Positions 9,561 to 42,647 of a DNA stretch of 42,647 bases are shown here, piece after piece. The DNA comes from a virus: the IMG/VR virus record IMGVR_UViG_3300034062_008255, positions 1 through 42,647 of that record; one strand, given 5' to 3'. A program made the translations under genes and the position numbers. Under the pieces are notes generated by a model, which made no database searches, was not told the DNA's origin, and saw only the letters and a program-made list of their open reading frames with translations. Position 1 is the stretch's first letter; each line of letters opens with the position of its first letter.

Positions 9561-9634
9561 TGGTAGGGGGTAATGGAGTTGAACCATTCACCTACGGATG
9601 TAAACCGTATGTTTTACCGATAAACTAACCCCCC
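9561..9634 (-). tRNA. tRNA-Val(UAC)
   Basis: Full cloverleaf, acceptor GGGGGGT/ACCCCCT with a G-U end pair, anticodon loop TTTACAT, canonical T-loop TTCAACT and GG in the D-loop. Discriminator A and an encoded CCA. Confidence 0.93.
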
Positions 9635-9650
9635 ATATAATTTTTTTTAT

Positions 9651-9938
9651 TTAGTAAGAGTCATACTCTTTATCTTTTTTAAATTTAAACCATGCATGCA
9701 TTAATAGCAAGCACATAACTACTCCCACACAATAATTAATAAACCACCATAATCCAAAGGTCGAAGTAAACAAATATACCATTCCAGAAATGTAGCCACC
9801 TAATGACATAATAACCAGCATTAATGATACATCATTTGACGACTTATTTTTGTAAATCTTATATATTTGTGGTATGTAGCATAACATGAAACAGATCATC
9901 ATGATGAGCCCCGATACCTCTCTTATAATTTCAATCAT
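9651..9938 (-). CDS. SemiSWEET/PQ-loop membrane protein
   Basis: About 95 residues from the ATG at 9938 (an upstream TTG at 9965 is less likely). Three hydrophobic helices are visible, and the first is followed by C-Y-I-P-Q-I-Y-K-I-Y-K-N-K-S-S-N-D-V-S, the PQ motif and loop of SemiSWEET/PQ-loop proteins. Those form dimers of three-helix bundles that move sugars along their gradient. A phage copy could alter sugar flux in the infected cell; the substrate is unknown. The C-terminus is charged and probably cytoplasmic. It is leftward, next to the tRNA-Val gene, and divergent from the glycosyltransferase gene. Confidence 0.75.
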   Translation of the reverse strand: MIEIIREVSGLIMMICFMLCYIPQIYKIYKNKSSNDVSLMLVIMSLGGYISGMVYLFTSTFGLWWFINYCVGVVMCLLLMHAWFKFKKDKEYDSY

Positions 9939-9989
9939 ATATATATAGTAGTTGATAATTAACAAAAAACAATTAAAAATATAGACCTT

Positions 9990-10823
9990 ATGTTAAAAGA
10001 TTTTATTGTCAATTCTTATCAAGTTGATAGAGCTTTAAATACTAAAAATATAATTTTAACATTTATTACGGGTGAGTTTTGCACATTACTATTAAACTGG
10101 TATAAACATCTGCAAAAACTAGGTATTAATGATAATGTAATTGTAGTTTGTCTAGACGCTACGGCATATACGTATGCCGTAGAGCATGGTATGACATGTA
10201 TGTACGTAGATCAAGAAACACTTGTTAATAGTGAAGATGAAGAAGTGTTTCTGCTCAGAAAAGCGTACAAAGAAAAGCACCATATATGTAAAGCCTATTG
10301 TATTGGTCACATTGCGTGCGAAAATAATATTAACGTAATCCATTCGGATATTGATATGATATTTTTGAAGGTACCTTTTGATCGTTTGTCTAAATTAATA
10401 ACTGAAAAATATGATATAGGAGCTTATATGGATTTGTCTTATGAGGAGTTGACATCTGGAATTCCACGTGAAAAAGGCGGGTTTGGTTTTATAATATTCT
10501 ATGCAACACCTACTTGGTATCCAAAGTTTTTAGATCAACTTAGAAAAGATCCGTTATGCATAGATGATAATGATGTAGGTCAAGCTGTTATGCAAAAGCA
10601 CTTTAAAGAAATCAAATCGCGTTGGTTGAATTCTTTTCTATTTACAAATTATAATATCTGGAAAGTTAAAGAAGTGCAGGATAATATAAGAAATATTTGT
10701 TATTGTATTCATTATAATACATCGGAAAATACGTGGATGTATAAAATGACAAATGAAAGAATTGAGAGACGGAATAATACAAAAATTGAAAGAATGAAAG
10801 AATATGGCCACTGGTTATTATAA
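9990..10823 (+). CDS. Glycosyltransferase (nucleotide-diphospho-sugar transferase type)
   Basis: A 277-residue protein. The segment N-V-I-H-S-D-I-D-M-I-F-L-K (D120, D122) is the D-x-D motif of the nucleotide-diphospho-sugar transferase family (GT77-like), which binds the metal and sugar nucleotide; G-G-F-G-F-I-I-F further on matches the acceptor-side loop. It probably adds a sugar to phage DNA, a virion protein or a host glycan. It overlaps the following GNAT gene by 20 nt. The sugar-nucleotide dehydrogenase (14296-15027) and reductase/epimerase (20898-21770) may supply related sugars. Confidence 0.7.
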   Translation: MLKDFIVNSYQVDRALNTKNIILTFITGEFCTLLLNWYKHLQKLGINDNVIVVCLDATAYTYAVEHGMTCMYVDQETLVNSEDEEVFLLRKAYKEKHHICKAYCIGHIACENNINVIHSDIDMIFLKVPFDRLSKLITEKYDIGAYMDLSYEELTSGIPREKGGFGFIIFYATPTWYPKFLDQLRKDPLCIDDNDVGQAVMQKHFKEIKSRWLNSFLFTNYNIWKVKEVQDNIRNICYCIHYNTSENTWMYKMTNERIERRNNTKIERMKEYGHWLL

Positions 10824-11325
10824 AGAGCAGGATATTAAACTTAAGTCAATTGATGTCTTAAACGAAACAGATCAAAAATTTCTTTATGATGTTGTTTTAT
10901 ATAGATGGAGGTTCCATGAAACTGTTAATATTACCTACAAAACACCACCTACACCACCTACATACGAGCAGCACATTCAATACCTAAAAAAGAACAATTA
11001 CAAAGAAATATATAGAATATGTTTAGGTGAATTTGCAGTTGGCACAGTTTATATAGATACAAATAATGTTTTTAGTATTTTCATATTACCCAATCTTCTT
11101 AAACTCGCCTTAAAAGAAAAGAAATTTATAAAAAATAGTAACAAGAGACTAGCAACAATTGTTATTCATAAATTAATGAAACTTAACTCTAATATTAAAA
11201 CGTTTTATGTAGGTATTAATGCTAAAAATACCGCAAGTTTAAACACAGCTATAGAATTACAGTGTTGTTATCCTATAGAGTATGTTTTAGGTTGTACAAA
11301 TATTTTTTATGAAAATGGCGGGTAG
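10804..11325 (+). CDS. GNAT-like N-acetyltransferase
   Basis: A 173-residue protein. The layout suits a GNAT fold: a variable N-terminal helix region (Y-L-K-K-N-N-Y-K-E-I-Y-R-I), the central strands G-E-F-A-V-G-T-V-Y-I-D, and a C-terminal F-Y-V-G-I-N-A-K-N-T-A-S-L-N-T-A-I-E, which matches the motif in which acetyltransferases end with N-x-x-S. The acetyl-CoA loop (Q/R-x-x-G-x-G/A) is degenerate, so the assignment is moderate. Translationally coupled to the glycosyltransferase, it may acetylate an amino sugar. Its last codons lie over the 3' end of tRNA-Ser on the other strand. Confidence 0.5.
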   Translation: MATGYYKEQDIKLKSIDVLNETDQKFLYDVVLYRWRFHETVNITYKTPPTPPTYEQHIQYLKKNNYKEIYRICLGEFAVGTVYIDTNNVFSIFILPNLLKLALKEKKFIKNSNKRLATIVIHKLMKLNSNIKTFYVGINAKNTASLNTAIELQCCYPIEYVLGCTNIFYENGG

Positions 11326-11403
11326 AGTAGGATTTGAACCCACGGAACATTTCTGTTCTTCGGTTTTCAAGACCGATGCAATAAGCCGCTCTGCCATCTA
11401 CCC
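11316..11403 (-). tRNA. tRNA-Ser(UGA), copy 1
   Basis: Type II tRNA with a long variable arm (GAACAGAAATGTTC), anticodon loop CTTGAAA, acceptor GGGTAGA/TCTACCC, discriminator G and encoded CCA. Its 3' end overlaps the stop region of the convergent GNAT gene by 10 nt. Confidence 0.93.
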
Positions 11404-11414
11404 GTTATAATATT

Positions 11415-11921
11415 TTAGCAATGATAGTTCAAAAATCTCTGGGCTGCTTTAGCTGTATTGTTACCTTTATTTTTTTGCTTACCTTTTAAGGTACGTGCCT
11501 TTGAACAGGTCATTTTACCTTTAACTTGTCTCTTAAGAATACCAGGACGAACAGGATCATGAATTGATTTTTCTTGTATTCCAAATCTATTTGATGCTTG
11601 TTGTTGTTTTCCAAATGTTTTTAATCCACGAGCTCCTCCTGCAGCTATTTTTGTGGCAGGTCTTCCTAATTTACGTAGTTTTAAAAGCTTAATTACATCA
11701 GCAAAGGGAATCATAGATATTGCAGAAATGCCTGCATTAATTATATGCTCCTTTCTTTGATCGGTATTTTTTGCTGCTGCAGCTCTAAGGCCAGAAATTA
11801 TTGTGTTAACTGCATCTGCACCTGTACCTACGGTAGGCTCAAATCCTGCAACATCGAGAGCAGCTTGAAGTTGATCAAGCTTACTCTTTTCTTCTATATA
11901 AAAAGATTTAAATGTTTTCAC
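11415..11921 (-). CDS. Putative internal head protein with pre-toxin-like hydrophobic segment
   Basis: A 168-residue protein with a GTG start overlapping the upstream TGA. The N-terminus M-K-T-F-K-S-F-Y-I-E-E is very close to the T4 internal-protein leader and contains an I-x-E cleavage site. Next comes a helical region (A-A-L-D-V-A-G-F-E-P, then G-A-D-A-V-N-T-I-I-S-G-L-R) and A-G-I-S-A-I-S-M-I-P-F-A-D-V-I-K-L-L-K, which resembles the hydrophobic pre-toxin segments seen before toxin domains. The C-terminus is strongly basic (L-K-G-K-Q-K-N-K-G-N-N) and has two Cys. It is probably a packaged, ejected protein, possibly membrane- or DNA-active. Activity unknown. Confidence 0.6.
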   Translation of the reverse strand: MKTFKSFYIEEKSKLDQLQAALDVAGFEPTVGTGADAVNTIISGLRAAAAKNTDQRKEHIINAGISAISMIPFADVIKLLKLRKLGRPATKIAAGGARGLKTFGKQQQASNRFGIQEKSIHDPVRPGILKRQVKGKMTCSKARTLKGKQKNKGNNTAKAAQRFLNYHC

Positions 11922-12751
11922 TTTATGTAACCTAATCCTTTTTTAAGGAATGTAAGATCTCTATCAATAGAAACTGGTGAAGGTTCGAGACCACTAATAA
12001 TTAAACCTGTATTAAAAGAAACGGTTGATGATAATTTTGCTTTTGGGCTGCGAAGCTCCGTACTATCGAGAGTTGATCCACCCCATTTTAATCTTGTTCT
12101 TACTCTCACCACATCTGGGTTAAACTGCGGCACACCATACTTTGCCAACCCCAATGGGTCTTTTTCCAAATAATAAAAGCCACCTGCAGGAGTGCCTATT
12201 TGAACATAAAATACTTTTTTAGCTGTATAGTTCGCAAAAATAGCATCCACACTCGAGTCAAAAGTTCCCAGTTCAGGTTTATAAGAAGGGTTATCTTGTC
12301 TAAACAAAGTATACTGAAGATTGGTAAGTGTTAAGGGAAATTCAGTAGCTGTGTATTTGATATTTCTTTTTTTAAACCAAGCATTAAACATTTTAAGCTT
12401 TGCAGCCACCTCGGATTGGACTTGTGGTAGTACAATATTATCAATTAAACCAATTTCATCGTAAAATGCTGTAAGATCGTCCTGCTTACTCGGCCAGCTC
12501 CATGAACCGTTTTTAACGTTATATCTAATATTTTTTTGACCTGCAAAAACATTAGGACTCAACTTTACCTCTACACCATATGGTTTACCACTTTTGGTAT
12601 ACATTTGAGCGTCAGCACCGTGACCTGCACCAGCTGTTTGTAAATTTGCAGGAGCTAAACCTGCACGGCTTAATTTGGCTTGAATATCTTTTTCATAAAT
12701 ACCACCAAGCTTGGCGTGAACTTCTACTATAAACTCTTTGAAAGAGACCAT
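11918..12751 (-). CDS. PD-(D/E)XK nuclease-like protein with capsid-targeting-like N-terminus
   Basis: A 277-residue protein. The leader M-V-S-F-K-E-F-I-V-E-V carries an I-V-E cleavage site of the T4 head-protease type. Just after it, G-A-D-A-Q (D47) and G-V-E-V-K-L (E61-V-K63) give the D...E-x-K core of PD-(D/E)XK nucleases, with an acidic helix (Y-E-K-D-I) before it. It may therefore be a nuclease packaged in the head and injected with the DNA, acting on host DNA or on competitors. The middle and C-terminal parts are not recognised. An ATTAAATA box lies 5 nt before the ATG, and the stop overlaps the GTG of the next capsid-targeted gene. Confidence 0.6.
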   Translation of the reverse strand: MVSFKEFIVEVHAKLGGIYEKDIQAKLSRAGLAPANLQTAGAGHGADAQMYTKSGKPYGVEVKLSPNVFAGQKNIRYNVKNGSWSWPSKQDDLTAFYDEIGLIDNIVLPQVQSEVAAKLKMFNAWFKKRNIKYTATEFPLTLTNLQYTLFRQDNPSYKPELGTFDSSVDAIFANYTAKKVFYVQIGTPAGGFYYLEKDPLGLAKYGVPQFNPDVVRVRTRLKWGGSTLDSTELRSPKAKLSSTVSFNTGLIISGLEPSPVSIDRDLTFLKKGLGYIK

Positions 12752-12756
12752 AATAA

Positions 12757-12764
12757 TATTTAAT
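12757..12764 (-). promoter_or_regulatory. T4-late-like box ATTAAATA
   Basis: ATTAAATA on the minus strand, 5 nt before the ATG of the nuclease-like gene 11918-12751, overlapping the stop of the upstream gene. Confidence 0.5.
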
Positions 12765-12994
12765 TACTTAACAAACACTTTACAGTGAGGATTAATAGAA
12801 AGAAACGCTATAGCATCATCATACTTGTCAAAGCTTTTAGATGTACCGTCTGGTAGAATAGCTAAAAATTGGGGTGGATCAGTTTTTAGTTCCGATAATA
12901 CCTTATCGATAGCTTTCTTCATACTTTGATCAGAAGTATAATGATCAGTATCTATGAAAGCATGCGTATAATGCTGAGGTTGAACAGGAAACAT
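12764..12994 (-). CDS. Hypothetical small protein
   Basis: A 76-residue soluble protein of mixed charge (K-A-I-D-K-V-L-S-E-L-K, then F-L-A-I-L-P-D-G-T-S-K-S-F). No family recognised. It has a perfect TATAAATA 7 nt before the ATG, so it is probably expressed late, and it precedes two capsid-targeted genes in the same direction, which suggests a virion-related role. Confidence 0.6.
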   Translation of the reverse strand: MFPVQPQHYTHAFIDTDHYTSDQSMKKAIDKVLSELKTDPPQFLAILPDGTSKSFDKYDDAIAFLSINPHCKVFVK

Positions 12995-13000
12995 ATATAA

Positions 13001-13786
13001 TTATTTATATCTGTTTTCGGCTCTTTTATTCATTGCATAGTACTTTTTAAAAGATGGTGTAGATGGTGCTTCTTTGTATTTGCTCATATATAGAGCAAGG
13101 CCTTGTTCAACCAGCTTTTTTGTAGTTAATACATCGTCAAGCGCTTGATGCCAATTATCAATTTGATTGAAAAGAGCTTTTGAGAGAGCACCGAGATTAC
13201 TTTGAACAGTTTTTCTCTGACCGTCTTTTTTGTAGCTAGAAGTTAATTGATCAAGCAACTGTTTTGCTTCTTGTGATCCTTCTTCTTCTTGTGAGCGTAA
13301 TAGCGGAACAAAAAATCTCCGAGAAAATGCTAATGAATCGAGAACAGGTATGTTTTTAATAGTTTGAATACCATACCGTTTCATTCTAGAATTAACCATT
13401 TTCATATCATATGAAGCATTATGTGCCAGAAGATATTGTGATTGTTCTGCAAATTCTTTAAATTTTCTTAACGCCTCTTCTTCTGTTGCTGTGGTTTTAG
13501 CTTTTGTATCATAGTAATTTGTCATTTGAAGAAGTTCGTCAATTGATTTATCATATTTGTTTTTACGTTCGAAGTTCTGAGCCTGTTGAGCAATTAATTG
13601 CTTTGTATCGTTAGTGAGTTCTATTTTTTCATAAAACTGATCATTTCCTCTTACAGCAGCTATTTCTACAATTTGAGCATCTGATGGTCTTAGACCGGTT
13701 GTTTCCGTATCAAAATAACAAACTTTTGCAAAATCAATACCCTCTAAAGGATTTGAGGTGTATGGGTTATAGCCTTCTTTTAGCAT
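13001..13786 (-). CDS. DnaQ-like DEDDh 3'-5' exonuclease
   Basis: A 261-residue protein. Exo I is Y-F-D-T-E-T-T-G (D26, E28), Exo II is L-A-H-N-A-S-Y-D, and Exo III is H-Q-A-L-D-D-V, giving the D-E-D-D-h metal-binding set. It removes nucleotides from 3' ends and could act in proofreading, repair or degradation of host nucleic acid. Residues beyond ~220 form a basic tail with no known domain. The CATAAGTA box 5 nt before the start overlaps the CCA end of tRNA-Ser(GCU). A separate phage FEN-type nuclease is encoded at 15342-16211. Confidence 0.88.
   Translation of the reverse strand: MLKEGYNPYTSNPLEGIDFAKVCYFDTETTGLRPSDAQIVEIAAVRGNDQFYEKIELTNDTKQLIAQQAQNFERKNKYDKSIDELLQMTNYYDTKAKTTATEEEALRKFKEFAEQSQYLLAHNASYDMKMVNSRMKRYGIQTIKNIPVLDSLAFSRRFFVPLLRSQEEEGSQEAKQLLDQLTSSYKKDGQRKTVQSNLGALSKALFNQIDNWHQALDDVLTTKKLVEQGLALYMSKYKEAPSTPSFKKYYAMNKRAENRYK
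13002..13009 (-). promoter_or_regulatory. T4-late-like box TATAAATA
   Basis: A perfect TATAAATA on the minus strand, 7 nt before the ATG of 12764-12994, partly inside the end of the exonuclease gene. Confidence 0.6.
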
Positions 13787-13791
13787 ATTAA

Positions 13792-13799
13792 TACTTATG
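13792..13799 (-). promoter_or_regulatory. Late-like box CATAAGTA overlapping a tRNA end
   Basis: CATAAGTA on the minus strand, 5 nt before the exonuclease ATG; its first bases are the CCA end of tRNA-Ser(GCU). The same box and the same spacing occur after tRNA-Arg at 16633-16640. Confidence 0.45.
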
Positions 13800-13888
13800 G
13801 CGGAACGAGCAGGATTTGAACCTGCGGAGGATTTTAAGCCCTCGAGTCTTTAGCAAAGACTTGCTTTAAGCCGCTCAGCCACCGTTCC
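13798..13888 (-). tRNA. tRNA-Ser(GCU)
   Basis: Type II tRNA with a long variable arm, anticodon loop TTGCTAA, acceptor GGAACGG/CCGTTCC-type pairing with one wobble, canonical T-loop TTCAAAT, discriminator G and encoded CCA. Confidence 0.93.
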
Positions 13889-13894
13889 TAAATA

Positions 13895-13977
13895 TGCCGA
13901 AGATAGGACTCGAACCTACACGGGTTACCCCAACAGATCCTAAGTCTGTCGCGTATCGCCAATTTCGCCACTTCGGC
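13895..13977 (-). tRNA. tRNA-Leu(UAG)
   Basis: Type II tRNA, variable arm with GGG-GTAA-CCC hairpin, anticodon loop CTTAGGA, acceptor GCCGAAG/CTTCGGC, canonical T-loop TTCGAGT, discriminator A. CCA is not encoded. Confidence 0.93.
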
Positions 13978-13985
13978 CAAAAATA

Positions 13986-14056
13986 TGGAGAATACCAGAG
14001 TCGAACTGGTGACACCTGAATGCAAATCAGGAGTTATACCACTTAACTAATTCCCC
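13986..14056 (-). tRNA. tRNA-Ala(UGC)
   Basis: Acceptor GGGGAAT/ATTCTCC contains the G3-U70 wobble pair that identifies alanine tRNAs; anticodon loop TTTGCAT; canonical T-loop TTCGACT; discriminator A; CCA not encoded. Confidence 0.93.
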
Positions 14057-14062
14057 GAAAAG

Positions 14063-14087
14063 TGAGACGTTTACCCGCGACGTCTCA
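14063..14087 (-). terminator. Hairpin between lipoprotein gene and tRNA-Ala
   Basis: 8-bp stem TGAGACGT/ACGTCTCA with a 9-nt loop, followed on the minus strand by CTTTTC only 6 nt before the tRNA-Ala 5' end. It could be a weak terminator or a processing signal. Confidence 0.4.
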
Positions 14088-14150
14088 GGACTAATCTCTA
14101 CCACTCGTATGTGGAAATGTCGGCACCATTTACAAGATTAACCCGTTGTA

Positions 14151-14258
14151 TTATTTAACCTTACAAACAACAGTTTTATTGCATGGAGTGCATTGTTTTT
14201 TAGATGCACATGCAGTAACACCGAGCATAAGGAATAATGATAGGATGATGTATTTCAT
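14151..14258 (-). CDS. Tiny lipoprotein (35 aa)
   Basis: 35 residues starting M-K-Y-I-I-L-S-L-F-L-M-L-G-V-T-A-C: charged start, hydrophobic core and a lipobox V-T-A-C, so the mature product is a 19-residue lipid-anchored peptide rich in Cys and Lys (C-A-S-K-K-Q-C-T-P-C-N-K). Small lipoproteins of this kind in phages resemble outer-membrane spanins (Rz1) or exclusion factors; there is no overlapping Rz-like gene here, so the role is open. It sits in the tRNA cluster between tRNA-Ala and the sugar dehydrogenase gene. Confidence 0.65.
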   Translation of the reverse strand: MKYIILSLFLMLGVTACASKKQCTPCNKTVVCKVK

Positions 14259-14295
14259 AGAATCTTTATTCTACTACATGTCTTATAAACTGCAA

Positions 14296-15027
14296 CTATT
14301 TTTTAAATTTTAAAACTTCCTCTATCAAAGAACTATCAATTAAATTTTCTAAAAGTTCAGCATTAGGTACAACACAGTGACCACCTATTTTACCTTCTGG
14401 TGGATATAACACTGGCCGTGTAAAATGGCTCATACCTAGTTCTTTATAACCCTCATTGTATGAAACATTCCAATCTGTTGATACGTTAACGTATTCTAAG
14501 CTATGTCTATCACAAAGCTTTTTAACTAGATCATGCCATGCTATACATACTCCGTAATATGTTGTGCAAAGAAGTTTTGAGAGTTCAGTAGCAAAAGAAT
14601 TCTTCATACGCTCACATTTAAAACCTAAAAATTTTAAATGTGCATAAGCCAATTGATAACCGTCCTCCGTATCACTTCCAATATATTTAACAAACCGTTT
14701 AAGTGAGTCATAAAGATAAGGATGAATGCCTCTTACAGGGCTATGAATAACAAACTTGTTCGGGCTTAACATCTGTAATCGTTTTGTTGTACCAGGAAGA
14801 ACCGTTGAATGAATTATCGTAATGATAGGCTTTGATGTTTGAATTTGTTCATAAACAATATCTAAAAAATCATTATTGTAGGGTATACAGACGTTAAGTA
14901 TTACTAGCTCACCGAGCTGTTCTACACTATTTTTGTCTTTTATCTTAAGGTTAAAAGGTTTATCTTTATAGAATTCGCTTAGCGCTTGTCCTATTTCACC
15001 GTAACCTAAAATACCAACGTCAATCAT
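14296..15027 (-). CDS. UDP-sugar dehydrogenase-like protein (short)
   Basis: A 243-residue protein, shorter than the usual ~400. It begins with the NAD-binding G-x-G-x-x-G (G-I-L-G-Y-G-E-I-G), then has H-S-T-V-L-P-G-T-T and H-S-P-V-R-G-I, and A-T-E-L-S-K-L-L-C-T-T-Y-Y, all characteristic of UDP-glucose/UDP-ManNAc dehydrogenases; the end G-K-I-G-G-H-C-V-V-P-N matches the loop that carries the catalytic Cys. The C-terminal UDP-binding domain is missing, so it may be a reduced enzyme, a reductase relative or inactive. It may modify sugars used by the phage glycosyltransferase. It is placed inside the tRNA cluster. Confidence 0.65.
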   Translation of the reverse strand: MIDVGILGYGEIGQALSEFYKDKPFNLKIKDKNSVEQLGELVILNVCIPYNNDFLDIVYEQIQTSKPIITIIHSTVLPGTTKRLQMLSPNKFVIHSPVRGIHPYLYDSLKRFVKYIGSDTEDGYQLAYAHLKFLGFKCERMKNSFATELSKLLCTTYYGVCIAWHDLVKKLCDRHSLEYVNVSTDWNVSYNEGYKELGMSHFTRPVLYPPEGKIGGHCVVPNAELLENLIDSSLIEEVLKFKK

Positions 15028-15064
15028 ATCACAAGTATATTGTATCTTTTATAAAATTCAATAT

Positions 15065-15140
15065 TGGGTTGCTCGACGGGGTTCGAACCCGCTCTGACAG
15101 GATCACAACCTGTAATGCTAACCGTTACACTACGAGCAAC
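15065..15140 (-). tRNA. tRNA-His(GUG)
   Basis: Has the extra G at -1 paired with C73, the histidine identity feature. Anticodon loop TTGTGAT, canonical T-loop TTCGAAC, encoded CCA. Confidence 0.93.
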
Positions 15141-15148
15141 ATTTAAAG

Positions 15149-15223
15149 TGGCCGCTGCTGTTGGTAACGCTCCAACCTATCAAGTTCTTCAGACTCGTGC
15201 TAATCTATCTCAGCTAAGCAGCG
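15149..15223 (-). tRNA. tRNA-Phe(GAA), atypical elbow
   Basis: Perfect 7-bp acceptor CGCTGCT/AGCAGCG, anticodon stem CGAGT/ACTTG with loop CTGAAGA (GAA), T-stem GTTGG/CCAAC and encoded CCA. The T-loop is AGCGTTA instead of TTCRANN, and the D-loop reads ..ATAGAT with A-G where G18-G19 is normal. Four-nucleotide variable region and discriminator G, both unusual for Phe. Intact stems argue for a working tRNA. Confidence 0.75.
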
Positions 15224-15243
15224 TAATATCGGGAGATAAAGTA

Positions 15244-15318
15244 TCGGGCAGAGAGGACTCGAACCTCCGGTCATTCCTGCTCCCAAAGCAGGTGCCATGG
15301 CCACTAGGCGACTGCCCG
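15244..15318 (-). tRNA. tRNA-Pro(UGG)
   Basis: Acceptor CGGGCAG/CTGCCCG with the C1-G72 pair of bacterial proline tRNAs, anticodon loop TTTGGGA, canonical T-loop TTCGAGT, discriminator A, CCA not encoded. Confidence 0.93.
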
Positions 15319-15341
15319 TTTAAAGTGTTTTATATATTTAT

Positions 15342-16211
15342 CTAAAATTTTAGAAAATCCGTAAGTGTACGGATTTGATCACTTCTTAAAAAGAACAAAT
15401 CATACCATTGATTTATATTCTTTAAAATCTGATGAAACCCTAACTCCTCACATCTCTTTTTAAACTGACTAAATTTGAATTCAACTGGTTGTTTAAACTG
15501 TTCTTTTACATAAGAACATTCTGTTTCATCTTGCAGAGTGTTTCTCAAATCTAATAATAAAAGATTATGTGCATATTGAGCTAGCTCTTCTGCACTCATT
15601 TCGACTTCACCGGCCAAATATTTTTCTATCTTAACTTTTCCAAAGCCTTTAATGCCTGGAACGTTATCAGATTTGTCACCTTGCAGAGCTTTAATTTTTA
15701 CGAAGTGCTCCTTTTTACATTTTAATACTTCTTCGAAGTTTGCTAAATTAAATTCTACTTTACGAATCGGATCAAAAACTACTGTATTCTTATCAATAAG
15801 TTGACAAAGGTCTCTGTCGACAGTAATAATGACTTTTTGATCGTCCTTGTATTCATTACAAAAGATAGCAATCACATCATCTGCTTCATATGCATAGGGA
15901 CACACGCTATTAATACCGAGATAACCAAGCATCTCTTTAATAATGTAATTCTTTGTATGAACATCTTTATTGCGTTCCTGATCACGATTACCTTTATAGC
16001 CTTCAAGCAAAGCTTTGCGCTTATTAACTTGATAGTCTGCTTTCTCGTCCCATGCACAGTAGGTTACGTTAGGCTGATACTTAGCTACGTATTTTTTAAC
16101 ACTCGTCAAAAAAAGATGAATGTGGAAGTGCTCGTTATAAATTGGCTGGTTTTTAGCAACCCAAAAAGTTCTATGAACAAGATTGTTGCCATCTATAATG
16201 AGACGTTTCAT
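15342..16211 (-). CDS. FEN-family 5'-3' exonuclease / RNase H (T4 Rnh-like)
   Basis: A 289-residue protein. It contains the PIN/FEN acidic sites I-I-D-G-N-N-L near the start, Y-E-A-D-D-V-I-A, T-V-D-R-D-L-C-Q-L-I, and the helix-hairpin-helix region Q-G-D-K-S-D-N-V-P-G-I-K-G-F-G. It removes RNA primers and 5' flaps during lagging-strand synthesis, like T4 RNase H, rather than being the nuclease part of a polymerase, since no polymerase domain follows. It is leftward, between tRNA-Pro and the membrane-anchored papain-like gene. No start other than the ATG at 16211 fits the conserved first strand. Confidence 0.9.
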   Translation of the reverse strand: MKRLIIDGNNLVHRTFWVAKNQPIYNEHFHIHLFLTSVKKYVAKYQPNVTYCAWDEKADYQVNKRKALLEGYKGNRDQERNKDVHTKNYIIKEMLGYLGINSVCPYAYEADDVIAIFCNEYKDDQKVIITVDRDLCQLIDKNTVVFDPIRKVEFNLANFEEVLKCKKEHFVKIKALQGDKSDNVPGIKGFGKVKIEKYLAGEVEMSAEELAQYAHNLLLLDLRNTLQDETECSYVKEQFKQPVEFKFSQFKKRCEELGFHQILKNINQWYDLFFLRSDQIRTLTDFLKF

Positions 16212-16237
16212 TGCTATATAATAGAGGATTTCTTCAG

Positions 16238-16627
16238 TTAATGCAATAATAATGTTGGTTCAATATAGTATGCTTTTTTTATTGAAAGTTTTGGAAAAGC
16301 AAGTTCCGCGATCATTAATGGGTTATAAAGTGAAAAGTGCGCTACAGGGAAAGATCCGCGATTAGGATCATAAACCCACGTTATATTTTTATAGACAAAA
16401 ACAGTTACAGCATGTCCTTCTATTATTCCATAAAATTGAATTGCAAGAACTCTTGTCCACATGTATTCATCTAATATTTGCTGAGCTTGTATAACTTGTT
16501 GAAAATATAAAGATTGTATTAGACAGCCGTCATTCAGCATTTCATATTTAAGTGGCACACGAACTGAATAATATTCAAAATAAAAAAACAAACCCACTGC
16601 TACTAGTATAGTAGGCCACCACTTCAT
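16238..16627 (-). CDS. Membrane-anchored papain-like putative cysteine protease
   Basis: A 129-residue protein. Residues ~5-20 (T-I-L-V-A-V-G-L-F-F-Y-F-E-Y-Y) form one membrane anchor. Then N-D-G-C-L-I-Q-S-L gives a Cys at a helix start, and E-G-H-A-V-T-V-F-V-Y and V-Y-D-P-N-R-G-S give His and Asp in the papain-like/transglutaminase-like order. It may act in the envelope or periplasm on peptides or proteins. The similar but soluble protein at 4935-5324 has the same order of residues. A CATAAGTA box overlapping tRNA-Arg lies 5 nt before the ATG. Catalysis is inferred from the motif order. Confidence 0.5.
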   Translation of the reverse strand: MKWWPTILVAVGLFFYFEYYSVRVPLKYEMLNDGCLIQSLYFQQVIQAQQILDEYMWTRVLAIQFYGIIEGHAVTVFVYKNITWVYDPNRGSFPVAHFSLYNPLMIAELAFPKLSIKKAYYIEPTLLLH

Positions 16628-16632
16628 AAAAA

Positions 16633-16640
16633 TACTTATG
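16633..16640 (-). promoter_or_regulatory. Late-like box CATAAGTA after tRNA-Arg
   Basis: CATAAGTA on the minus strand, 5 nt before the ATG of 16238-16627 and overlapping the last bases of tRNA-Arg, exactly as at 13792-13799. Confidence 0.45.
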
Positions 16641-16710
16641 GATCCTCCAAGGGTCGAACTCAGAATTTAACGTCCGTAGCGTTACGTGATATCCATTTCA
16701 CCAAGGATCC
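16639..16710 (-). tRNA. tRNA-Arg(ACG)
   Basis: Acceptor GGATCCT/AGGATCC, anticodon loop CTACGGA (ACG; A34 needs host TadA to become inosine), canonical T-loop TTCGACC, GG in the D-loop, CCA not encoded. Confidence 0.93.
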
Positions 16711-16714
16711 GAAA

Positions 16715-16788
16715 TGGCGGTTCGTAGGGGTTATGCTCCCCTGCTACTAGAGTGACAATCTAGTGTACTGCTATTATACTAACGAACC
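16715..16788 (-). tRNA. tRNA-Asp(GUC), atypical elbow
   Basis: Acceptor GGTTCGT/ACGAACC, anticodon loop TTGTCAC, T-stem AGGGG/CCCCT, discriminator G (an Asp identity base) and encoded CCA. T-loop AGCATAA and D-loop AATAGCA replace the usual TTCRA and GG. Identity and stems are intact, so it is likely functional. Confidence 0.8.
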
Positions 16789-16793
16789 ATAAG

Positions 16794-16865
16794 TGGAGTC
16801 GGTGGGGGTCGAACCCACGGCCAATTGGTTAAAAGCCAACTGCTCTTCCTCTGAGCTACAACTCC
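16794..16865 (-). tRNA. tRNA-Lys(UUU)
   Basis: Acceptor GGAGTTG/CGACTCC, anticodon loop CTTTTAA, canonical T-loop TTCGACC, GG in the D-loop, discriminator A, CCA not encoded. Confidence 0.93.
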
Positions 16866-16872
16866 CGAAATA

Positions 16873-16943
16873 TGCCGCAGCACGGTACTGCCCCGAGTTC
16901 TTTAGTTTGGAAGACTAACACATTACTTTTATGTTACTGCGGC
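16873..16943 (-). tRNA. tRNA-Gly(UCC), atypical elbow
   Basis: Acceptor GCCGCAG/CTGCGGC, D-stem ACAT/ATGT, anticodon stem TTAGT/ACTAA with loop CTTCCAA. T-loop GGCAGTA and D-loop AAAAGTA deviate from the canonical form; T-stem has one mismatch. CCA not encoded. A second, canonical glycine tRNA (GCC) is at 18206-18277. Confidence 0.75.
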
Positions 16944-16947
16944 TAAA

Positions 16948-17031
16948 TGGCATGTCCGTGAGGAATCGAACCCCTTAGTCAAACGACGAGAGTTTTGGAG
17001 ACTCTGTACAATCCCACTTGTGAGCGGACAT
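16948..17031 (-). tRNA. tRNA-Trp(CCA) with long variable arm
   Basis: Acceptor ATGTCCG/CGGACAT with A1-U72 and G73 as in bacterial tRNA-Trp, anticodon loop CTCCAAA, canonical T-loop TTCGATT, encoded CCA. The variable region is 13 nt with a GTC-GTTT-GAC hairpin instead of ~5 nt, and position 8 is C instead of U. Confidence 0.8.
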
Positions 17032-17039
17032 ATAAAGAA

Positions 17040-17112
17040 TAGCGGGTGAGGAAATCGAATCCTCCTATAGATGCTTATGAGACACCTGAACTCACCAGAG
17101 TTCTAACCCGCA
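17040..17112 (-). tRNA. tRNA-Met(CAU), initiator-like
   Basis: Anticodon loop CTCATAA as in bacterial initiator tRNA, acceptor with an unpaired 1-72 position (U-U) over five G-C pairs, and A11-U24, all initiator features. The three G-C pairs of the anticodon stem are absent (GGTGT/GCATC), so elongator use is also possible. Canonical T-loop and D-loop; CCA not encoded. Confidence 0.85.
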
Positions 17113-17128
17113 GTTAAAATTATTTAAA

Positions 17129-17200
17129 AGCCCCAGGACGGTTACGCTCCGTCTACCGATCCTTACCAAGGAACTGTTTTGCTATTAGAACTACAAGGGC
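17129..17200 (-). tRNA. tRNA-Thr(GGU), atypical elbow
   Basis: Acceptor GCCCTTG/CTGGGGC with one U-U mismatch, anticodon loop TTGGTAA, T-stem GACGG/CCGTC. T-loop AGCGTAA and D-loop ..AATAGCA are non-canonical. Discriminator U and no encoded CCA. Less perfect than the other atypical tRNAs; could be decaying. Confidence 0.65.
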
Positions 17201-17208
17201 GGTTAAAA

Positions 17209-17299
17209 TGGCGGGCAGAGTAAGATTCGAACCCATGGTGAAGTTTCCCCCACTTCCGATTTCAAGTCGGGCGCCTTAGACCAACTCAGCTATCTGCCC
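17209..17299 (-). tRNA. tRNA-Ser(UGA), copy 2
   Basis: Type II tRNA with long variable arm, anticodon loop CTTGAAA, acceptor GGGCAGA/TCTGCCC, canonical T-loop TTCGAAT, discriminator G, encoded CCA. Same anticodon as 11316-11403 but clearly different body sequence. Confidence 0.9.
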
Positions 17300-17304
17300 T
17301 AAAA

Positions 17305-17378
17305 TGGTCCCTCCTCATGGTACCGCCCCATGCTCTGTTCCTTATCAAAGAACCGTTCTACTACTGAACTAAGGAGGG
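17305..17378 (-). tRNA. tRNA-Ile(GAU), atypical elbow
   Basis: Perfect acceptor CCCTCCT/AGGAGGG, D-stem GTTC/GAAC, anticodon stem GTTCT/GGAAC with loop TTGATAA, T-stem CATGG/CCATG, discriminator A, encoded CCA. T-loop GGCGGTA and D-loop AGTAGTA are non-canonical. The stems are essentially perfect, the best evidence that this class is not degenerate. Confidence 0.8.
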
Positions 17379-17717
17379 AAAGGGCGTGTTTTTGTACCAG
17401 AAACCGAAGGCGTCCCAACTTAATGTGTACTGGCTTTGTTATCACGCTAGATCACCCGAACGGTGCGCATCGACATCATCGAGAGGCGTCCCGGGTCTAC
17501 TAAAATATTTAGTATGTGAAGGGTTTTGTCCTAGGAATTGTCCCTTCCTCAACGGAGCCCGGCATGGAGCCAGTACTTCCGTCCTCAGCCTGTGTTAAAC
17601 TAAATGCATAGAGTCGTAGCTTTATGTAGCCTAGCTCGTCTAGCACAGATGGGTCTCCTAACACACTAACAGGCAAAGAGATTCCACCCTGATCTGGAAA
17701 CCACTACGGCCAGATCG
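17379..17717 (-). ncRNA. Candidate large structured RNA of unknown family
   Basis: About 340 nt with no credible gene and GC near 50%, well above the surroundings. At least seven helices can be drawn: 17427-17434 with 17569-17576 (8 bp), 17491-17495 with 17558-17562, 17498-17504 with 17508-17514, 17518-17523 with 17542-17547, 17591-17597 with 17659-17665, 17607-17613 with 17620-17626 and 17691-17697 with 17710-17716. Their nesting gives two multi-branched domains and an end hairpin. The 9-mer AGGCGTCCC occurs twice (17408, 17484). It directly abuts tRNA-Ile and the tRNAs run leftward, so I place it on the minus strand. I find no tmRNA tag, RNase P motifs or group I core. Large ornate phage RNAs (GOLLD, ROOL) also lie near tRNAs, but this one is shorter. 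Confidence 0.6.
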
Positions 17718-17924
17718 TTAAACAAGATTTTTATTCCATTCTCGTGCTGCTTCAATATAACCTTCTTCTTGAAGATAGTTTCTTAAAGCTTGAAAGTCAT
17801 GACCAGAGATTCTTTTCTTTGAACGAATTTCTAAATCATAATGATCTTCACCATCGTTGGTCCAAAGGGTTTTGATACCAACTTCCATATTATTGCCTTT
17901 GAATGATAATCTTGTCGTATACAT
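17718..17924 (-). CDS. Hypothetical small protein
   Basis: A 68-residue soluble protein (start M-Y-T-T-R-L-S-F-K-G; later G-H-D-F-Q-A-L-R-N-Y-L-Q-E-E-G-Y-I). No family is recognised. It lies between the structured RNA and tRNA-Cys in the same leftward direction; a TATAAT sequence stands ~10 nt before the ATG and could be a host-type -10 element or coincidence. Confidence 0.6.
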   Translation of the reverse strand: MYTTRLSFKGNNMEVGIKTLWTNDGEDHYDLEIRSKKRISGHDFQALRNYLQEEGYIEAAREWNKNLV

Positions 17925-17967
17925 AAATTCATATTATACGAATATTTGCTATTTGCAAATAAAAAAA

Positions 17968-18042
17968 TGGAGCATCGGGTCAGAGTCGAACTGACTAATA
18001 AAGGTTTTGCAGACCATTGCCTAGCCGTTTAGCTTCCGATGC
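17968..18042 (-). tRNA. tRNA-Cys(GCA)
   Basis: Acceptor GCATCGG/CCGATGC, anticodon loop CTGCAAA, discriminator U73 (the cysteine identity base), canonical T-loop TTCGACT, encoded CCA. One mismatch in the anticodon stem. Confidence 0.92.
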
Positions 18043-18049
18043 AAAAAAA

Positions 18050-18132
18050 TGGGGCCAGTGGAGGGACTCGAACCCCCGTTGTTTGTATACCGCTTTACAA
18101 AAGCGGTGCTGTCGCCGCTGAGCCACACTGGC
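18050..18132 (-). tRNA. tRNA-Thr(UGU) with long variable region
   Basis: Acceptor GCCAGTG/CACTGGC, anticodon stem CCGCT/AGCGG with loop TTTGTAA, canonical T-loop TTCGAGT, encoded CCA. The variable region is ~12 nt without an obvious stem and the discriminator is C, both odd for threonine. Confidence 0.8.
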
Positions 18133-18144
18133 ATTAAAATCTTA

Positions 18145-18188
18145 CCCGGGATCCGTCACTACATTAGCAGGAGAGGGATTGTCCCGGG
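18145..18188. other. Imperfect inverted repeat between two tRNAs
   Basis: CCCGGGA (18145-18151) pairs with TCCCGGG (18182-18188), extended by TCC/GGA after a bulge. It fills the gap between tRNA-Thr(UGU) and tRNA-Gly(GCC); no cloverleaf can be drawn. It might be a small RNA, a processing signal or a collapsed tRNA. Confidence 0.4.
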
Positions 18189-18205
18189 ACTGTAAAATTT
18201 TAAAA

Positions 18206-18277
18206 AGCGAGTGATCGGGCTCGAACCGACAGTACCTTCGTTGGCAACGAAGTGCATTACCATTATGCTACACTCGC
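18206..18277 (-). tRNA. tRNA-Gly(GCC)
   Basis: Acceptor GCGAGTG/CACTCGC, anticodon stem CTTCG/CGAAG with loop TTGCCAA, canonical T-loop TTCGAGC, GG in the D-loop, discriminator U, CCA not encoded. Confidence 0.93.
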
Positions 18278-41950: not shown

Positions 41951-42647
41951 ATGAGTTCTGTTAATACATTTATATTGAAATACATAACCCCTGGTGGTCT
42001 TAGTGTTACTCAAGGACTCTCTACAGTAGAAATACCAAAAATACTACCAAATTTAAATACTGTAAATGTTTATTCGGTTTCTGTTAATAAACAAAAAAGA
42101 CTCACAGTTACTGCAGACAATGTTCAAGTTAAAATAAACAATTTTAATGCGCCTTTTTTATTTCAAAATCAAGTAGTAGCTGTGGGTAGTCCTATTGTCA
42201 CCACACCTACCCCTACACCTACCCCTACACCAACCCCACCACCGTGCAGTTCAGATTTAATTGACTTTAATATTACAACAACATCAGGCAATATTACTGT
42301 CAATTGGGGTGATGGTACCCAGCAAACAGCGTTTTCTAATGTACCTGTATCACATGATTTTTTCTGTCCTCACACTTCAGCTTCTATAGGTTTTTGGACT
42401 AATATTGATCCCTGCGCTTTTTGTACCCCAACGCCGACACCTACTCCAACACCGACACCTACTCCAACACCTACACCGACTCCTACTCCAACTCCAACAC
42501 CAACACCTACACCGACGCCTACTCCAACGCCGACACCGACACCAACACCGACGCCTACTCCAACGCCGACACCTACTCCAACACCTACTCCAACACCTAC
42601 ACCTACTCCAACACCTACTCCAACACCTACACCAACACCTACACCTA
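41951..42647 (+). CDS. Adhesin-like protein with PKD-like domain and Thr-Pro linker (3' end outside window)
   Basis: At least 232 residues, open at the right edge. Residues 1-80 are beta-rich, 84-98 a short Thr-Pro run, ~100-157 a PKD-like domain with V-N-W-G-D-G-T (paralogous to 29941-30171), and from residue 159 on an uninterrupted run of Thr-Pro pairs. Such runs form stiff extended stalks that hold a binding domain away from the virion. Only the ATG at 41951 fits; TCTAAATA stands 12 nt upstream. Confidence 0.75.
42425..42647 (+). repeat. Thr-Pro coding repeat
   Basis: At least 37 consecutive Thr-Pro codon pairs using mixed synonymous codons (ACA/ACG/ACT/ACC with CCT/CCA/CCG), with 12- and 18-nt sub-repeats. 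Length is unknown because it reaches the window edge; such repeats are also prone to assembly collapse. Confidence 0.9.

Follow-up and report, generated by a model that had tools for sequence, protein, structure and literature searches.

G18, G19, U54, U55, C56 and A58 are taught as near-invariant bases of the transfer RNA (tRNA) elbow, a constancy on which gene finders, modification enzymes and structural reasoning depend. U54 and U55 are, in addition, the usual substrates of T-loop methyltransferases and of TruB. The canonical elbow is described as formed by G18 with pseudouridine 55, G19 with C56 and U54 with A58 (PMC4810234, PMC7912444). Five tRNA genes departing from this scheme are found in the IMG/VR virus record IMGVR_UViG_3300034062_008255, a stretch of 42,647 bases analysed at full length and called the window hereafter. 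Their alternative elbow has in common with the canonical one the seven-base T-loop, a C56 able to pair with base 19, a purine at 57, the G53-C61 pair and the cloverleaf dimensions. It differs in having A-G at 18-55, A-U or G-G at 54-58 and A60; the 15-48 combination is mostly non-Watson-Crick, and there is neither a U54 nor a U55 to modify.

Eukaryotic initiator tRNA-Met has A60. Provided that this A60 is correct, it shares with the alternative elbow the coupling of a purine 54 (R54) with A60, besides the natural purine 54 itself, and it offers a precedent in nature for this R54 state. Its A54 is engaged in an A54-A58 pair, so that base 58 stays A, and no change at 18-55 is described in the relevant passages of the source (PMC7912444). 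The alternative elbow, unlike that of the initiator, combines A-U or G-G at 54-58 with A18-G55, and is carried by bacterial and phage tRNAs of the elongator type. Sequences of the G18-G19 and T-Psi-C kind are likewise missing from tRNA-Pyl and from type II mitochondrial tRNAs; tRNA-Pyl, tRNA-Sec and metazoan mitochondrial tRNAs are described as having other architectures or a lost D/T contact (PMC7609411). Unlike all these, the alternative elbow retains the contact through compensated bases, and the tRNAs bearing it are ordinary in other respects and of many identities.

Suppressor tRNAs with altered 54-58 or D/T contacts have reportedly been selected by Steinberg and colleagues; these are laboratory selections and not natural genes, and they are said to indicate that altered elbows can in principle work in translation. 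The tRNA-His of SAR11 bacteria, which has A73 and no G-1, belongs to the same gene family in which the alternative elbow was found; the study describing it deals with the acceptor end, and elbow, U55, G18 and T-arm are absent from its main text (PMC3937112). Phage tRNAs escaping anticodon nucleases likewise differ from those of the host at constrained bases, but the changes are in the anticodon loop, and T-loop, D-loop, T-arm, D-arm and elbow are absent from the main text of the report (van den Berg et al. 2023, PMC10264068). No report of a natural A18-G55 elbow was recognised among the open PubMed Central papers listed by literature searches; preprints or subscription journals could hold one.

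The five genes belong to an array of 20 tRNA genes on the minus strand of the window (9561-18277), where they stand among 15 canonical ones; the array was drawn from ARAGORN, Rfam and a self-written cloverleaf finder, referred to as the scanner. tRNA-Phe(GAA) (15149-15223, minus strand, as the other four) has encoded CCA, G73, the D-loop AGATAGAT and the T-loop AGCGTTA; its elbow reads A18 G19 and A54 G55 C56 G57 U58, with A60, and its cloverleaf scores 27.3. tRNA-Asp(GUC) (16715-16788; D-loop AATAGCA, T-loop AGCATAA), also with encoded CCA and G73, is found by ARAGORN, by Rfam (53.2 bits) and as a cloverleaf. An encoded CCA is lacking in tRNA-Gly(UCC) (16873-16943; D-loop AAAAGTA, T-loop GGCAGTA with G54-G58; Rfam 46.9 bits) and tRNA-Thr(GGU) (17129-17200; D-loop TAATAGCA, T-loop AGCGTAA; Rfam 28.1 bits), and is present in tRNA-Ile(GAU) (17305-17378; D-loop AGTAGTA, T-loop GGCGGTA with G54-G58), found both by Rfam (45.1 bits) and as a cloverleaf. 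In all five the scanner reads A18-G19 in the D-loop, a four-base variable loop and A60. The Watson-Crick pair G19-C56 is retained in every gene, and the canonical combination of G18-U55 with U54-A58 occurs in none. Acceptor, D, anticodon and T stems are paired into a cloverleaf in all, with one mismatch in the T stem of Gly and one each in the acceptor and anticodon stems of Thr. The seven-base anticodon loop and U33, both required by the scanner, are found in all five, and anticodons and discriminators are plausible. A score of 26 is exceeded by three genes; Gly (25.6) and Thr (23.1) fall below it, and the evidence for these two is Rfam together with their position in the array.

A preliminary description of the window had set five tRNAs with A18-G19 and AGCRU or GGCRG T-loops against 15 with GG and UUC-R-A. 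The former were confirmed on the minus strand by the scanner, the latter by eye, the scanner list comprising 14 of the 15 (not Pro). Stems and identity bases had been called largely intact, which is fair, except that Gly and Thr are mismatched, Thr being the weakest, and that Phe has G73. The usual discriminator of tRNA-Phe is A73; G73 is seen also in the Phe relatives from contigs L266 and L012, and A73 in the Phe genes of L110 and L247.

On the sequence evidence, the five genes probably encode tRNAs competent in translation, the elbow of which is formed by a second set of tertiary contacts with mutually compensating bases. Elbow pairs were counted in 1,376 unique viral tRNAs, a set in which named phage stretches are also represented; 2 duplicates had been removed, as well as 204 rows matching any of three search patterns, because the patterns force some bases. 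The 18-55 and 19-56 combinations were taken from the 448 tRNAs whose D-loop has seven bases, a length that leaves no ambiguity of register. At 18-55, G-U (345) and A-G (91) make up 436 of the 448 cases, other combinations being 12, against a maximum of 318 in shuffles; at 19-56, G-C occurs 415 times, A-U 18, C-G 4, U-A 3 and others 8, and Watson-Crick combinations total 440 against a maximum of 401. U-A, A-U or G-G is found at 54-58 in 1,315 of the 1,376 tRNAs, the shuffles reaching at most 1,054. In the shuffles T-loop letters were permuted among tRNAs, which does not keep relatedness, and rows are sequences and not events; this tempers the counts, and close pairs were therefore examined.

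The tRNA-Pro genes of L496 and L059 differ at 7/53 non-loop positions, and their D- and T-loops differ only by G19A together with C56U. In tRNA-Val, passing from L265 to L310 (3/53 differences), A18-G55 with A54-U58 becomes G18-U55 with A54-A58. A third pair, L294 and L077, is identical at the non-loop positions and differs by C56U and one D-loop G-to-A change; it is ambiguous, as G18-A19 fits only in a register shifted by one. Altogether, 193 pairs with the same anticodon and at most 12 non-loop differences belong to different T-loop classes; they are non-independent, and count pairs and not events on a tree. In the 377 tRNAs in which the T-loop does not begin with UUC, the D-loop register fits the tRNA's own bases 55-56 in 349 cases and would fit U55-C56 in 110; as a group they do not show the loss of D/T matching of the metazoan mitochondrial type. 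The view that 18-55 and 54-58 co-vary in a working elbow and not in decaying genes, put forward in the preliminary description, is upheld by the covariation and by the paired differences between similar tRNAs.

Elbow positions are moreover coupled in groups. In the classes with a purine at 54 (AUC..U, AUC..A, GUC..G, AGC..U and GGC..G, written by bases 54-56 and 58) A60 is found in 154 of 171 tRNAs, and in those with U54 (UUC..A, UGC..A, UUU..A) base 60 is a pyrimidine in 1,098 of 1,123. A-U or G-C is the 15-48 combination of 680 out of 833 canonical tRNAs whose variable loop has four or five bases, and of 59 out of 77 UGC..A tRNAs; in the AGC..U class (n = 40) the leading ones are A-C (14), G-G (7), A-A (7) and G-A (4). 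From these tallies, 54, 58, 60, 15 and 48 move together, and 18/55 and 19/56 can move alone. The coupling fits known elbow anatomy, in which bases 59 and 60 are described as flipped out because 54-58 stacks on 53-61 (PMC7912444), and position 15 as paired with 48 (PMC4810234). In the proposed model, the place of G18 with pseudouridine 55 would be taken by A18 with G55, and that of U54-A58 with pyrimidine 60 by A54-U58 or G54-G58, along with A60 and mostly without a Watson-Crick 15-48, and G19-C56 would be kept; a base-pair geometry is presumed for both A18-G55 and A54-U58. The elbow would consist of three exchangeable modules, namely 54/58/60 plus 15/48, 18/55 and 19/56, and phages, occasionally bacterial chromosomes, would shift between module states by paired substitutions.

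Relatives with the same 18/55 and 54/58 bases in other genomes, for which the preliminary description had suggested a search, were found in quantity by sequence patterns. A loose pattern (D-loop ATAGCA with T-loop AGC(A/G)T(A/T)A) matched at least 119 stretches in viral contigs. Among the matches listed, 47 of 119 loci gave alternative cloverleafs with a score of at least 24.5, for a total of 122 cloverleafs, the window's own virus (L054) included; the other loci gave none at this score, many being presumably chance matches. A strict 47-base pattern, which has 2 matches on the window and 0 in 100 shuffles, was found in at least 120 viral stretches. Nearest relatives were sought among same-anticodon tRNAs of the collected set, over 53 non-loop positions. 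The relative of the window Phe in contig L266 has the same elbow and 2/53 differences; those of the window Ile, in L266 and L293, have the same elbow class and 3' acceptor strand, with 16-17 differences. In a tally that includes pattern-found tRNAs, anticodons for 15 amino acids are represented in the viral AGC..U class, and the remaining altered classes have a comparable breadth. In a viral sample gathered by a canonical pattern (120 loci, 648 unique tRNAs), 581 tRNAs are UUC..A and 67 (about 10%) are not; G55-C56 is found there in 18 tRNAs from 13 loci.

The strict pattern was found also in at least 119 stretches of bacterial and archaeal genomes, and all 119 fetched loci fold as tRNA cloverleafs. 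Among the 119 loci listed, the anticodon is GUG in 86, 72 of which are SAR11-type tRNA-His, and GGU in 16. Among the 80 genome loci with titles, the remaining ones include tRNA-Thr(GGU) in records labelled as Alphaproteobacteria, Rickettsiales or Pelagibacteraceae, tRNA-His in Nomurabacteria and Taylorbacteria, and tRNA-Asp in Verrucomicrobia. The notion of a phage trick is not supported, since SAR11, Nomurabacteria, Taylorbacteria, Verrucomicrobia and further genomes have tRNAs with the same elbow. A distribution limited to phages was accordingly rejected, single-copy tRNAs of SAR11 genomes being among the carriers.

In six genomes of the SAR11 family of G001, a Pelagibacteraceae record, tRNAs were found by Rfam and re-read with the scanner. 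Alternative elbows number 0/31 in G006 (where 2 of 33 Rfam matches were not re-read), 2/30 in G041, 1/32 in G023, 1/29 in G027, 3/30 in G036 and 4/32 in G018. tRNA-His, Phe, Thr(GGU) and Tyr are single in each of the six and Val(GAC) in five, single meaning the only one found by RF00005 and the scanner. Identical second copies were sought and not found in G006, G041, G027 and G036; G018 and G023 each have as many distinct tRNAs as Rfam matches, namely 32. tRNA-His features A18-G55 in G023 and is canonical, with the same acceptor stem, in G006 and G041; tRNA-Tyr features A18-G55 in G041 and is canonical in the near-identical gene of G023. At the Phe-His locus both genes are canonical in G027, Phe has A18-G55 and His is canonical in G036, and both have A18-G55, with A54-U58, in G018; the neighbouring reading frames match those of G018 at up to 92% (G036) and 89% (G027). 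We infer that the sole tRNA for its codons must work, which is the strongest argument for a functional elbow. An L-shaped fold, charging and ribosomal use are suggested by the covariation and by these tRNAs found once per genome.

Genes of this kind are partly overlooked by common finders. ARAGORN reports 16 tRNAs in the window, and 16 are above the cut-off of Rfam RF00005; the two sets differ. The 16 of ARAGORN are the 15 canonical genes and one of the five alternative ones (Asp), Phe, Gly, Thr and Ile being missed. RF00005 has Asp, Gly and Ile above cut-off and Thr 0.9 bits under the limit of 29, and does not list the Phe gene up to E = 1. Over scanner cloverleafs scoring at least 26 in viral and bacterial loci, pattern-found ones included, ARAGORN recovers 1,153 of 1,154 UUC..A tRNAs, 49 of 51 AUC..U, 113 of 126 UGC..A, 83 of 166 AGC..U and 7 of 67 GGC..G. 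The expectation that standard finders would miss the alternative tRNAs holds, for ARAGORN, strongly for GGC..G and by half for AGC..U, but little for UGC..A. Since the scanner needs U33 and at least 4/5 pairs in the anticodon and T stems, it does not see badly degraded genes; at a score of at least 26, the real strands yielded 1,739 structures and 2.62 Mb of reversed sequence none. In a survey of 2019, viral tRNA genes are described as having been sought mainly with ARAGORN (PMC6409571), and the altered classes are therefore likely under-counted there. ARAGORN-based censuses of phage tRNAs probably undercount altered elbows.

Decaying tRNA pseudogenes with random loop changes would account for the stem mismatches of the window Thr and Gly, the only two of the five without encoded CCA. 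Decay is very improbable, and was rejected: changes are compensated, the stems of relatives are well paired, the Phe gene is conserved at 51/53 non-loop positions in another contig, bacterial genes occur once per genome, and the reversed-sequence control gave zero structures; the window Thr is the weakest case. A dedicated non-ribosomal role, with an elbow lowering use in translation, would find a parallel in the staphylococcal cell-wall (peptidoglycan) tRNA-Gly, in which elbows are reportedly altered. Such a role is hardly credible for viral classes spanning as many anticodons as AGC..U, and for SAR11-family tRNAs that are the only ones found for their anticodon. Several observations weigh nonetheless against a working alternative elbow. 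The window Thr, with its two stem mismatches, could be weakening. For the window Asp and Gly, the nearest tRNAs with the same anticodon in the collected set have a canonical elbow (14/53 and 20/53 differences), and for Thr the nearest is AUC..U (12/53), followed by a canonical and an AGC..U one (13 each). The strict form is rare in wider samples: 4 genomes have it out of 147 from the family of G001, and a looser tRNA-His pattern returned the same four genomes among 118; in the phylum of the Nomurabacteria genome it was found in 1 of 379 genomes, which is the starting genome itself. As for a cause in TruB, alternative elbows amount to 3/93 in three TruB-positive and 8/91 in three TruB-negative SAR11-family genomes (p = 0.13, the genomes being non-independent), and TruB is present in 4/4 tested elbow-carrying genomes outside SAR11 (G148-G151).

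Why the ordinary elbow should be frozen is a weaker part of the model. Modification enzymes and other elbow readers may need U54 and U55; once this need is eased, as in short-lived phage tRNAs or reduced genomes, drift or selection may bring the elbow to modification-independent solutions. These two steps jointly are given about even chances. Escape from TruB and TrmA, proposed at the outset, is trivially true, U54 and U55 being absent, selection for escape being conjectural. Loss of TruB, perhaps of other T-loop enzymes, could by itself free U55 and allow neutral drift along compensated paths. In agreement with this, TruB (PF01509) gave no match in the pattern-positive G004, G018 and G064, nor in G001 (900,000 bases, probably incomplete), and the 4/32 alternative elbows of G018, a single contig of 1.32 Mb, compare with 1/32 in G023, where TruB is present. 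TruB was matched in 14 of 14 control genomes, but only in 28 of the 147 of the family; some of the other 119 may be incomplete. The strict pattern, however, occurs in only 4 of these 119 genomes versus 0 of the 28 with TruB (Fisher p = 1.0), G041 has TruB and yet 2/30 alternative elbows, and TruB and the elbow coexist in the tested Nomurabacteria, Taylorbacteria, Verrucomicrobiales and Chitinophagales genomes. TruB loss is thus not required, and as sole cause it is not supported by either comparison nor by the four TruB-positive carriers; a link between TruB loss and the alternative elbow is only suggestive, and drift following relaxation alone is rather unlikely. In view of the same p values and carriers, modification-independence, although the leading reason proposed for the alternative elbow, is weakly supported.

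The main rival to modification-independence would be nuclease escape in phages. In such an antagonistic diversification, the elbow would be changed to escape a host nuclease, toxin or modifier reading U54, U55, C56, A58, G18 or G19, and the fold kept by compensation. The altered bases are those that elbow readers would read, the solutions are several and different, and about one tenth of phage tRNAs are other than UUC..A even in the canonical-pattern sample. Phage tRNAs are described as escaping anticodon nucleases by changes in the anticodon loop (PMC10264068). On the other side, the same states are found in bacterial once-per-genome tRNAs, 15 of the 20 tRNAs of the window phage remain canonical, and no elbow-specific nuclease is linked to the elbow, hosts and phages not having been searched for one. 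This origin is considered doubtful, and translation-competent tRNAs with compensated contacts remain the preferred reading of the elbow itself.

Natural exchanges are thus found at each of the three elbow pairs, and 18-55 behaves as a covarying pair of which A-G is the second state. Several versions of a tRNA part supposed to be nearly universal exist in nature and are in part missed by common finders, and the question of why the elbow is so conserved, whether for fold, modification or recognition, becomes directly testable by module swapping. A bolder conjecture, which we hold to be improbable as a whole, is that elbows are not universal and draw on a few interchangeable codes (54/58/60, 18/55, 19/56), several of which phages would carry at once as a defence against host readers of the common elbow, and some of which marine bacteria would have fixed in essential tRNAs. 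If so, TruB, TrmA, RNase P and tRNA-targeting effectors would face more than one code, and would either have to handle this or be defeated.

The window also carries phage-type genes, e.g. ribonucleotide reductase and exonuclease, and 20,867 of its bases (5345-26211) recur with 100% identity in an 86 kb IMG/VR contig holding L001. The 357 bases between tRNA genes at 17379-17735 contain no listed open reading frame (ORF) of 100 amino acids and no Rfam match up to E = 1, and fold no better than shuffles (z -0.31). An ORF at 41951-42646 runs off the contig end, and its second half is largely a Pro-Thr dipeptide repeat.

When the tRNA region was compared with named phages, 175 records matched, each over less than 80% of the query. 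Of the 20 places listed, most are at annotated tRNA genes or in unannotated records, and the best match (93.8% over 80 bases) falls at the canonical Thr(UGU) gene. No A18-G55 gene was found in the scanned stretches L121-L124, L671 and L672, and no elbow variant in those of L123 (CcrRogue) and L671 (RHph_TM30); the 1-50000 stretch of Atu_ph07 is without annotated tRNA. Forms with A54-U58 were found in the uncultured phage L121, in the tRNA-Pro of DSS3_MAL1 and in the tRNA-Lys of Aeromonas phage Ahp1, and C19-G56 in the tRNA-Met of Phosso. Many different elbow variants, such as an A18-G55 form with C19-G56, are gathered on one contig in L104 (1485-12741). In L121 (LR756502.1, 642 kb) several tRNAs have A54 with U58 or A58, and G18-U55, and CAA in place of CCA directly follows the discriminator in 15 of 19 tRNA genes. 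Annotated tRNA-Pyl genes are present in Sinorhizobium phage Phosso (L122, 22668-22743) and in DSS3_MAL1 (L124, 13412-13485); that of Phosso has the anticodon CTA in an otherwise ordinary-looking tRNA, and is possibly an amber suppressor.

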